NCBI RefSeq assembly: GCF_000193375.1
Contig: NC_015315.1
Coordinates: 1,682,622-1,746,621 of the forward strand
Length of the DNA: 64,000 bases
Reading direction: 5' to 3'
Source of the DNA: Thermoproteus uzoniensis 768-20
Lineage (GTDB): Archaea; Thermoproteota; Thermoprotei; Thermoproteales; Thermoproteaceae
The position numbers and the translations under genes are program-made. The notes under the pieces are model-generated. The model was given only the letters and a program-made list of their open reading frames with translations, searched no databases and was not told the DNA's origin. Position 1 is the stretch's first letter; each line of letters starts with the position of its first letter. Below, piece after piece: positions 20,200 to 23,363 of the stretch.

Positions 20200-20249
20200 C
20201 GTCCCAACGTAGTCGGAAAGCTTTAAAAGTATAGGGAATATACGTCAAG

Positions 20250-20368
20250 GGGCCCGTAGCTCAGCCCGGTAGAGCGGCGGTGGACCCAGCCAGATCCGCC
20301 GAGGCTTTTAACCCGTAGGTCGTGGGTTCGAAGGGGGACGGCCCCCGAAACTCCCACCGGGCCCGCCA
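20250..20368 (+). tRNA. tRNA-Lys (TTT) with two non-canonical introns, CCA encoded
   Basis: Acceptor GGGCCCG (20250-20256) pairs with CGGGCCC (20358-20364), followed by G73 and an encoded CCA. The anticodon TTT is at 20307-20309 in loop CTTTTAA. The anticodon stem only closes if about 23 nt (about 20281-20303, near position 29/30 or 30/31) are removed. The T-loop only becomes TTCGAAT if 19 nt (20333-20351, position 59/60) are removed. The nearby tRNA-Arg gene has the uninterrupted T-arm, which confirms the second intron. TTTAAAAG (about 20222-20229) is the promoter box. Confidence 0.9.
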
Positions 20369-20438
20369 GCGCGCCGTTTACGTAGACATCAAGCCTTTGT
20401 AGTCTGAAGTCTATATAAAAACGGCTGGTCTTGGCTTC

Positions 20439-20957
20439 GTGCAAGAGGCTTATTATCAAATAAATAGAGGAAAAGCTGTTGTGAGAAAACTCATCGCCGA
20501 GATGGCCTACATGGGACTTGTCGGCACTCTCGCAGTGCCTCCTTTCGGCGTTTTGAGAAGCCCGCTGTCCTCTATTATAACGCCGGAGATAGTCTCGGCG
20601 CTTGCCCTCGAGATCTTGAAAGACGACCCTAATGCCGTCCTCAACTCGAGATTGGGGCTGAAGCTGGGCGGGATCCCCGCTTGCGATATGTTGAAATACC
20701 ACGAGCTGAACGTCTTATGTAGACTAGTTAAGGAGAACGGCGATAGGCCTCTCTACGCGGTTGTGGACTTGCTCGCGCCCCATCTAGGCGTGGCCTTATC
20801 CAACCTGGGCTACAGGGAGGGCGATCTCTTGATAACGGCCCTCAGAGTCTTAAAGGGGGAGGCCGGCTCGGCGGAGCAAGCCCAGCTGTTCAAGCTGTAC
20901 GACGAATGGGGCCTTTACGCGCACATTAACGTTCGACGTAGCGAGCGGACGCCCTGA
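20439..20957 (+). CDS. Hypothetical protein
   Basis: This 172-aa protein is not recognised. It looks globular and mostly helical, with Leu/Ala-rich segments (EIVSALALEILKDDPN, YAVVDLLAPHLGVALSNLG), three Cys and no membrane segment. The GTG start lies about 20-28 nt after TATATAAAAAC (20411-20421). It is the first gene in the stretch bounded by the inverted tRNA-Lys and tRNA-Arg genes, and its 3' end overlaps the convergent bud32 by 32 bp. Confidence 0.65.
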   Translation: MQEAYYQINRGKAVVRKLIAEMAYMGLVGTLAVPPFGVLRSPLSSIITPEIVSALALEILKDDPNAVLNSRLGLKLGGIPACDMLKYHELNVLCRLVKENGDRPLYAVVDLLAPHLGVALSNLGYREGDLLITALRVLKGEAGSAEQAQLFKLYDEWGLYAHINVRRSERTP

Positions 20958-21549
20958 TGCGCCTCACGCCCTCGCGGACGTCCTCGGCCAGGCGCCCCAA
21001 CGCCGAGTAGCCATCCCAGAAAGCCCTCTTGTAGTCCTCGCCCCTCTCGCCGTATGTATCCAACACCCTCAACAACACGTTGACGTCGCGCGCGAACTCC
21101 AGCACGGCCCTCCTGCCGGAGCCCTCTACGAAGTATCCGAGGCCCATATCGATGAAGTAGGGCCTAACGCCGCCTCTATAGATCACGTTGGTGAGGGCCA
21201 GATCCCCGTGGACTATGCCCGCCGCGTGTAGCCTCGCTACCATAGAGCCCACGTCGCCCAACACGTTCTTGCCGCTCTCCAGAAGATCCTTGGCCGTGGG
21301 GCCGTCGATATATTCCATGACTATGGCCGCCCGCTCCACGTCGAAGAAATACACGGCGGGCACGTCGACGCCGGCTTCGCGGGCCTTGGCCATAACCCTG
21401 ACCTCGTTCAACGTCCTCCTAGACCTAATGGCCTTATCCAGCTCCGGATCCCTATAGCGCTTGGGCTTTCTGAGCTTCACGACAGCCCTCATGCCGAACC
21501 AGTCCACCTCGTAGAGGTCGGCCTCGGCGCCTCTGGCTATGAGCCTCAC
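20926..21549 (-). CDS. bud32: KEOPS complex kinase/ATPase Bud32 (PRPK)
   Basis: Bud32 is the small RIO-related kinase of the KEOPS complex, which with Kae1 makes t6A37 in ANN-decoding tRNAs. The 207-aa product begins MRLIARGAEADLYEVDWFG (reduced glycine-rich region), then VVKLRKPKRYRDPELD (ATP-binding Lys and the family KxYRxPxLD motif), MEYIDGP, the catalytic HGDLALTNVI and FIDMGLGYF (metal-binding Asp). The start is set at GTG 21549 by comparison with the family N terminus; the longer open frame upstream (to 21768) is antisense to the divergent radical-SAM gene. It is separate from kae1 here. Confidence 0.9.
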   Translation of the reverse strand: MRLIARGAEADLYEVDWFGMRAVVKLRKPKRYRDPELDKAIRSRRTLNEVRVMAKAREAGVDVPAVYFFDVERAAIVMEYIDGPTAKDLLESGKNVLGDVGSMVARLHAAGIVHGDLALTNVIYRGGVRPYFIDMGLGYFVEGSGRRAVLEFARDVNVLLRVLDTYGERGEDYKRAFWDGYSALGRLAEDVREGVRRIRASARYVER

Positions 21550-21582
21550 GAAAAATGAAAAAACCACAGCCCTAAGAACGTT

Positions 21583-22701
21583 GTGGCCTGGGCCCTCTAC
21601 AGGCCCGACGCGGTGGCCGTATGGAGCGACGAGGTGGTGAGGGAGCGGCTTAGTTGGTACTACGCCGTGATGCGGGACAAGGCTCCGTCTAAGTTCCACA
21701 TAGCGGCGCGCGTCGAAGCGCCGCGCGACTACGCCGAGCTCGACGACGAGAGGTTGTGGAGGCTCCACGAGGAGCTGGGCAGAGCCTTCGACGAGGAGTG
21801 GTCCGCCCAGAGGGAGAGGCCGGACGTGCGCCTGGTCGAGAAGGGCCTGCCGGAGGCCTCGTTCCTAGACGTCAAGATAGAGCTGGCGCGTAGGCAGCTG
21901 AGGCGGTGCAACTTGTGCGAGAGGCATTGCGGAGTGGACAGGACCAGGAGGAGGGGGGCTTGCCTGCTCGACGACAAGCCGAGGGTATCCAGCTGGTTCC
22001 TCCACATGGGCGAGGAGGCCCCGCTCGTCCCCTCGGGCACTATCTTCTTCGCCGGCTGTAACTTCAGATGCGCCTTCTGCCAGAACTGGGACATATCGCA
22101 GAGGCCCGAAAACGGCGCGGAGGCGACGCCGCGCCACCTCGCCCTAATACAGATCAGGCTGAGGGCTGAAGGAGCGCGGAACATAAACTGGGTGGGCGGC
22201 GAGCCTACCCCCAACATACCCTCCATACTCGAGTCCTTGAGGGAGCTCGCGGCGAGGAGGTTCAACGCGCCCCAGCTGTGGAACAGCAACATGTACCTAA
22301 CCCCCGAAGGCCTCTCGCTCATACTCCACATAATGGACATCTGGCTCCCCGACTTCAAATATGGCAACAACGCCTGCGCCCTCCGGTACTCGGTGGCCCC
22401 CAGATACGTCGATGTGGTGGCCAGAAACCTCTCGACGATATGCAGACGGGGCGAGGACGTGATAATCAGACACCTAGTGTTGCCGGGCCACGTAGACTGT
22501 TGCACCAAGCCCGTGCTCAAATGGATAGCCGAGAACTGCCCAAGGGCCTTGGTGAACATAATGGACCAGTACCACCCCGACTATCTAGTCCCCACAATGG
22601 CCAAATACTCTGACATAAACCGGCTTGTGTCCGACGCAGAGATGAGAGAGGCCTACCGTTACGCCGATGAGCTGGGCCTCGCCTGGCGCCAAGTCAGCTA
22701 G
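21583..22701 (+). CDS. Radical SAM protein, PflX/PflA-like (COG1313)
   Basis: This 372-aa protein has a Cys-rich entry (CNLCERHCGVDRTRRRGAC) and the radical-SAM signature CNFRCAFCQN, followed by WVGGEPTPN (GGE motif), as in the uncharacterised pyruvate-formate-lyase-activase-like PflX family. An extra N-terminal region of about 100 residues precedes the first Cys cluster. Its substrate is unknown. GTG 21583 lies 18-25 nt after GAAAAAACC (21557-21565) and diverges from bud32. The gene ends 61 bp before the 3' end of the inverted tRNA-Arg gene. Confidence 0.82.
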   Translation: MAWALYRPDAVAVWSDEVVRERLSWYYAVMRDKAPSKFHIAARVEAPRDYAELDDERLWRLHEELGRAFDEEWSAQRERPDVRLVEKGLPEASFLDVKIELARRQLRRCNLCERHCGVDRTRRRGACLLDDKPRVSSWFLHMGEEAPLVPSGTIFFAGCNFRCAFCQNWDISQRPENGAEATPRHLALIQIRLRAEGARNINWVGGEPTPNIPSILESLRELAARRFNAPQLWNSNMYLTPEGLSLILHIMDIWLPDFKYGNNACALRYSVAPRYVDVVARNLSTICRRGEDVIIRHLVLPGHVDCCTKPVLKWIAENCPRALVNIMDQYHPDYLVPTMAKYSDINRLVSDAEMREAYRYADELGLAWRQVS

Positions 22702-22762
22702 GCTCTACAGAGCGTGAAGCCGGCACGTCCAAGATAGCCAGACCGCGATAGCGCGAGGTCGC

Positions 22763-22895
22763 TGGCGGGCCCGGTGGGATTCGAACCCACGACCTCCGCC
22801 CCCTCTAGGGCCTACGGCTCGCTCCGCTTCCGCTTAGGAGGCACGGCGGACCGGCCGGGTCCACCGCCGCTCTATCCATGCTGAGCTACGGGCCC
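22763..22895 (-). tRNA. tRNA-Arg (CCT) with three introns, CCA encoded
   Basis: Acceptor and T-arm are intact (GGGCCCG/CGGGCCC, GTGGG TTCGAAT CCCAC). The anticodon CCT (plus-strand 22836-22838) sits in loop CTCCTAA. Folding requires removal of about 22 nt in the 5' anticodon stem (22842-22863), about 15 nt at the canonical 37/38 region (22819-22833) and about 18 nt in the variable region near 45/46 (22793-22810). That leaves stem GCGGC/GCCGT and variable loop AGGTC. The first intron and the flanks closely resemble tRNA-Lys at 20250. TTAAAAAC on the minus strand (about 22916-22924) is the promoter box. Confidence 0.86.
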
Positions 22896-23363
22896 CTTGA
22901 CGTATATTTCTATCTGTTTTTAAGCTTTTCCGCCATCTTTGTCCATCTCCAGATCTTTCCGCGAGGGTCGAACGCCTCCTGTCGCCTAATACGAAAGGCG
23001 GCCCTCGCCCACACATTACGCCGGGCTTCTTGCGATGAGCCGCCTCTCCTTGCATATTCCATACTGTCCATCTCAACGCCGTATCCCCCGCCGATACCTT
23101 AGCTTATGCCGCGGTATGTACGTTACGTAATGCCGTCCGGCTTGGCGTGTAGCCTCCGCGCCTCGAGGGCTGGCAAGGCCTTTCGTAATTCTCTTTACGT
23201 TTTTCGACCGAGGTTTTGAGGACACAGCGACAAGTAGCCCAAGTCGCCCTCACAGATCCTTCGCCGGCTTGGTTTTGTGCGTGCTTGGACGGCGGGGCTG
23301 TGAAGAGGCGGCCGTGCCCGGGGCTGGACGATATATGTAAATTTTTAGGGTTTGTACCCAATC
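22896..23363. other. Gene-free stretch of about 470 bp
   Basis: Apart from the tRNA-Arg promoter at its left end and the TATA box ATTTTTAG (23341-23348) for the next gene at its right end, I see no convincing coding frame. The GC content is like that of genes, and several short hairpins are possible, for example GCGAC/GTCGC around 23230-23253. It could hold a structured RNA or a decayed gene. I looked for RNase P RNA and SRP RNA signatures and did not find them. Confidence 0.4.

Follow-up and report, generated by a model that had tools for sequence, protein, structure and literature searches.

Do tRNA genes of different amino acid identity exchange sequence with one another? This question is raised by a locus of Thermoproteus uzoniensis 768-20, at which a tRNA-Lys(TTT) gene on the plus strand and a tRNA-Arg(CCT) gene on the minus strand lie close together. 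The window, that is the whole stretch of DNA analysed, comprised 64,000 nt (NC_015315.1, positions 1,682,622-1,746,621; C1:1682622-1746621), and was compared with other genomes of the family, among them Thermoproteus sp. CP80 (G005) and G002, which is presumably T. tenax. The first-pass annotation had read the two genes as an inverted pair sharing an identical 5' flank, the same acceptor and T-arm bases and one homologous intron, and had proposed duplication or gene conversion between them, with possible inversion of the 2.4-kb segment that they enclose. Both genes were confirmed on the strands given, as was the content of the segment, which holds bud32 and two more genes, orfX and a radical SAM gene (Table 1). 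The pair forms an inverted repeat of 49 nt with 84% complementarity, plus shorter arms.

Table 1. Features of the tRNA-Lys(TTT)/tRNA-Arg(CCT) locus, in window positions
Feature	Position	Strand	Remarks
tRNA-Lys leader	20217..20249	+	TATA-like AAAGCTTTAAAA and ATATACGTCAAG
tRNA-Lys(TTT) gene	20250..20368	+	CCA encoded; two introns
Lys intron at 29/30	20281..20303	+	junction ambiguous by one G
Lys T-loop intron (about 59/60)	20333..20351	+	GGGGG/CCCCC hairpin
orfX	20439..20957	+	conserved protein; no Pfam or NCBIfam match
bud32	20926..21768	-	TIGR03724, residues 80-278; true start probably internal
radical SAM gene	21583..22701	+	PF04055; under NCBIfam cut-offs; name amrS uncertain
tRNA-Arg(CCT) gene	22763..22895	-	CCA encoded; three introns; flipped relative to G002, G003 and G005
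Arg variable-loop intron	22794..22811	-	like those of Arg(CCG) and Arg(TCG), same genome
Arg intron, most simply 37/38	22820..22834	-	repeat AGC makes 37/38 to 40/41 equivalent
Arg intron at 29/30	22842..22863	-	junction ambiguous by one G
tRNA-Arg leader	22896..22928	-	AAAGCTTAAAAAC and ATATACGTCAAG
Spacer by flipped Arg gene	22936..23345	.	no copy found elsewhere in the window genome or in G001-G005

The genes were parsed against templates, since the Lys gene escapes both ARAGORN and Rfam when these are run at default settings. On the window ARAGORN called neither tRNA-Lys(TTT) nor tRNA-Arg(CCT), and of the two Rfam at its gathering score found Arg alone; in a whole-genome Rfam search the Lys gene scored just 15.2 bits. 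The parse bore out similar introns at the same site, 29/30, in both genes, but the Lys T-loop intron and the Arg 37/38 and variable-loop introns had been overlooked. With the introns removed, the exons fitted tRNA templates across the parsed genes. The spliced Arg exon folded as a cloverleaf; the minimum-energy fold of the spliced Lys exon was not a cloverleaf, and its canonical stems were picked out by eye. Bulge-helix-bulge (BHB) prediction gave, for the 29/30 sites, helices whose borders are unpaired, and looser structures at the remaining intron sites.

The wider sample consisted of 92 parsed Arg, Lys and Trp genes of the GGGCCSGTAGCTCAG class from 17 genomes of the family. Records starting GGGCCSGTAG without CTCAG next were excluded before counting, as were parses scoring below 100 (contig ends, 5' halves and misfits). 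In four genomes sequence was taken from some of the candidate places: 4 of 6 in G015, 5 of 8 in G017, 8 of 9 in G014 and 2 of 3 in G018. An intron at 29/30 was present in 50 of the 92 genes and in 15 of the 17 genomes, including 10 of 15 Lys(TTT) and 12 of 16 Arg(CCT) genes. In the window the two introns are TGGACCCAGCCAGATCCGCCGAG (Lys) and TGGACCCGGCCGGTCCGCCGTG (Arg), and each was found to be nearer to its CP80 orthologue than to the other: the Lys intron is 1 edit from that of CP80 Lys as against 4 from window Arg, and the Arg intron 2 edits from that of CP80 Arg as against 4 from window Lys. This is the outcome that the first-pass annotation had named as refuting its reading, and a recent passage of this first intron between the window Lys and Arg genes was therefore rejected. 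The two introns represent an old intron that is spread across the family and has been inherited separately in either gene. Their common end TCCGCCG, offered earlier as a sign of homology, is indeed common to both but would be partly forced, since BHB architecture implies that the 3' end of the intron pairs with the common 5' exon GGCGG. These introns fit an explanation by descent and constraint alone, in which introns are inherited per gene and any likeness arises from pairing of the splice motif with identical exons and from a common promoter leader.

The likeness of the leaders also turned out not to be limited to the pair. The 12-nt ATATACGTCAAG does abut both genes at their 5' ends (20238-20249 for Lys, 22896-22907 for Arg), as had been noticed, but it belongs to a leader family consisting of a TATA-like AAAGCTTAAAAA followed by about AAATATATGTAAAG. 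When searched with one regular expression, this family was found ahead of 9 of the 12 sampled GGGCCS-class tRNA genes in the window genome, and it precedes 7 of 9 such genes in CP80; a leader specific to the pair was rejected because the family is genome-wide, which again fits descent and constraint. Exact copies of ATATACGTCAAG number five in the genome, two at the pair and three with no tRNA gene following. The window pair has a C at -4 in common that is absent from the other family leaders of the genome, and a C at -7 found in just some of them. Similarly, the two genes do agree in their acceptor and T-arm bases, but these bases are common to 60 of the 92 parsed genes. The upstream score of the pair ranked 26th among 221 within-genome pairs of different identity, with 8 other pairs of the window genome outscoring it; it nevertheless exceeded the bulk of the cross-genome pairs, of which 15 of 3345 score as high. 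Taking this rank together with first introns closer to orthologues, conversion between the two window genes themselves was not indicated.

The order of genes at the locus bears on the proposed inversion. The window, G002 and G003 have in common the order rSAM-memb-Lys-orfX-bud32-radicalSAM-Arg-meipe, with the same orientations of the protein genes. The CP80 locus agrees with the window in protein-gene order as far as its contigs reach, the draft contigs ending near its Lys gene; in G004 the gene order at the locus differs. In G002, G003 and CP80 the tRNA-Arg gene lies downstream of the radical SAM gene and is read in the same direction, and only the window copy is flipped. Inversion of the 2.4-kb segment is thus rejected on synteny, and it was the flip of tRNA-Arg alone that turned a direct pair into an inverted one. 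The likeness of the window Arg locus to the CP80 Arg locus extends no further than the tRNA plus some 30 nt of its leader. A repeated element was considered as the cause of the flip and rejected, as the 410-bp spacer beside the gene has no second copy in the window genome or in G001-G005. These results make it very improbable that the pair arose by duplication of the region or of a single tRNA, followed by a change of anticodon (alloacceptor remolding) and inversion of the segment. The inverted arrangement with a common flank would suit such an origin, and remolding is documented in mitochondria (PMC4783518, opening of its abstract), but both isoacceptors are separate genes throughout the family and the genes of the segment hold their order and orientation in G002 and G003.

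Across the family, we calculated mean normalised edit distances for three kinds of pairs, given here in the order same genome and different isoacceptor, different genome and same isoacceptor, and both different. T-loop introns (n=25) gave 0.196, 0.419 and 0.406, and variable-loop introns (n=9) 0.167, 0.500 and 0.498; permutation of genome labels reached the observed values in 0 of 2000 and 32 of 2000 trials, respectively. For 29/30 introns (n=50) the means were 0.323, 0.301 and 0.387, and for the 37/38 class (n=20) 0.380, 0.346 and 0.458, with 0 of 2000 permutations in both cases and orthologues slightly closer than paralogues. For the leader, -36 to -1 (n=91), the distances were 0.425, 0.486 and 0.498 (0 of 2000), and for an upstream control, -100 to -41 (n=91), they were nearly equal at 0.563, 0.567 and 0.578, the permutation departing slightly (1 of 2000). 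The nearest neighbour was a paralogue of the same genome for 16 of the 25 T-loop introns (6 ties) and for 6 of the 9 variable-loop introns (1 tie). Within Thermoproteus alone, the permutation was not significant for the variable-loop (257 of 2000, n=7) or the 37/38 class (263 of 2000, n=8).

From these distances and permutations it follows that T-loop and variable-loop introns track the genome and not the gene, whereas 29/30 and 37/38 introns carry both genome and gene signals. Paralogues are the closer relatives, as expected under concerted evolution, for T-loop introns, variable-loop introns and leaders, but not for the 29/30 and 37/38 classes. Similar introns in different tRNAs of one genome are seen in the T-loop and variable-loop classes. 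In the window, the variable-loop intron of tRNA-Arg(CCT), GCCCTAGAGGGGGCGGAG, resembles that of the Arg(CCG) and Arg(TCG) genes of the same genome, TCCCTAGTGGGGCGGAG; the four variable-loop introns of CP80 are mutually alike and unlike those of the window. In the raw parse the window Arg intron showed a 6-edit tie between its own genome and G017, and with uniform borders the two of its own genome were closer than G017, as judged by eye. On sequence likeness, this intron is the clearest putative sign of exchange in the window. Descent and constraint alone are hence quite unlikely as a general account, since no orthologue signal above baseline is left in the T-loop and variable-loop introns, the T-loop class by itself being already contradictory.

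The clearest pairs were found in CP80 and G002. In CP80, the Lys(TTT) and Arg(CCT) genes have a 36-nt leader in common except for one base and are alike from -36 into the D-arm, where the Lys gene bears the Arg-like D-arm GCATGG. Differences lie in the D-loop, in a portion of the 29/30 intron and around the anticodon. Beyond the anticodon region the two genes do not differ at any base, variable-loop and T-loop introns included, and a further 17 nt of 3' flank is common with one mismatch. The Arg(CCT) and Lys(TTT) genes of G002 carry the same introns, base for base, at 29/30 and at 37/38, to either side of anticodons that differ; their leaders differ as well. The leader of the G002 Lys(CTT) gene is a match to that of Arg(CCT), and contains GCCTGTGAGCTAA, the final 13 nt of the radical SAM gene which adjoins Arg(CCT). 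This coding end is native to the Arg locus, which sets the direction of copying, from Arg to Lys(CTT), and places the event at the level of DNA. The exact identity in CP80 and G002 covers unpaired and flanking bases, which also speaks against descent and constraint alone.

Upstream scores set some pairs apart from the background of 3345 cross-genome pairs. Of the 221 within-genome pairs of different identity, five, from G016, G002, G004, G007 and CP80, lie beyond its 99.9th percentile. Four of the five also exceed its maximum; for the remaining one, that of CP80, 3 of the 3345 score as high. Downstream, the null maximum of 12.8 was exceeded by 2 of 225 within-genome pairs. Gene conversion between tRNAs of different identity, as first proposed for the window pair, thus appears to recur in the family, the CP80 Lys/Arg pair included, but does not hold for the first intron of the window pair.

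In two further genomes, G016 (L074, L146) and G007 (L010, L141), the Arg(CCT) and Lys(CTT) leaders are near-identical within the genome and differ between the genomes. In G016, similar coding sequence is found upstream of both genes. Because the common upstream stretch reaches this coding sequence, segmental duplication is possible in G016. In these data as a whole, conversion and duplication followed by loss are inseparable, and the latter is possible for single cases, G016 foremost.

Taken together, introns and leaders are homogenised within genomes across tRNA identities, flanks are transferred along with them, and in the two clearest pairs the anticodon region is left unconverted. Many tRNA genes of the family seem to copy stretches from one another, introns and promoters included. 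The best explanation is probably gene conversion among tRNA genes at the DNA level, with tracts that cross the anticodon selected against; from this pattern we infer both that conversion is at work and that selection is why the anticodon is spared. The genes involved, the window pair among them, would be the dispersed, mostly single-copy Arg, Lys and partly Trp tRNA genes, whose exons are almost identical. Recombination would repair one gene from another over short tracts, using the common exons as homology, and at times a tract may take in the leader and reach the gene next to it. Whatever lies within a tract, be it intron, exon base or promoter, would be copied with it. Transfer of introns would be tolerated because the splicing endonuclease would excise them. 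A tract over the anticodon of a single-copy tRNA would abolish that tRNA, so that the surviving tracts would be those flanking the anticodon.

Similar introns across the tRNAs of one genome, at canonical and non-canonical sites, were published by Fujishima et al. in 2010 for the same archaeal order, Thermoproteales, as large-scale intron transposition of unknown mechanism, according to papers citing that work (PMC4090602, PMC4033280). Similar introns at the same sites of different tRNAs are likewise present in our parsed set. Transposition proper, in which excised introns enter other tRNAs at BHB-compatible sites by reverse splicing or DNA insertion, with no exchange of exons or flanks, is nevertheless unlikely for our cases, since the moved sequence also takes in leaders, 3' flanks and part of an adjacent gene, and the CP80 Lys gene has an Arg-like D-arm. 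That flanks, leaders and exon bases travel with the introns is what suggests gene conversion. The mechanism of archaeal tRNA intron spread was called unknown in a 2014 review (PMC4090602), and among the papers found on tRNA intron spread, gene conversion or concerted evolution in archaea, no title or abstract opening describes conversion of this kind.

Intergenic gene conversion has been reported for yeast tRNA genes, which are also dispersed and have their introns equalised; the yeast cases, in the part of the review covering them (PMC4090602), concern the same isodecoder, whereas here anticodon and amino acid differ and the genes are mostly single-copy. Alloacceptor remolding (PMC4783518) resembles the present cases in that tRNA genes of different amino acids have bodies in common, but our genes retain their identity and exchange the sequence around the anticodon. 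The co-transferred flanks are a direct and testable mark of conversion at the DNA level, and the pattern shows how single-copy tRNA genes with differing anticodons could homogenise while retaining identity. With somewhat less assurance, we lean towards the view that the "tRNA intron transposition" of Thermoproteales is largely gene conversion among tRNA genes for different amino acids, which carries promoters and coding ends and has the anticodon as a selected barrier, essential single-copy genes evolving in concert except for their identity.

Some genes of G003 resembled split tRNAs. Its tRNA-Arg(TCG) is apparently split near 29/30, with halves 1.6 kb apart (L124, G003:C1:486294; L332, G003:C1:487938), complementary ends, a TATA-like box ahead of each half and a 465-aa ORF on the opposite strand between them. 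Passages on the subject in the one paper found (PMC3218864) name no split tRNA for Thermoproteus. Another Arg-type 5' half, L291 (G003:C1:1094936), had no 3' half in the stretch examined. A Val-like CAC gene looks split by about 3.2 kb (L255/L337; G003:C1:458957, 455751), with an ABC transporter-like ORF in the gap. A GAC gene (L296/L338; G003:C1:1810373, 1810212) has the same 5' half, the complement and a TATA-like box within about 160 nt, and resembles a gene with a long intron carrying a promoter. It is possible that the GAC and CAC genes represent the before and after of tRNA splitting.
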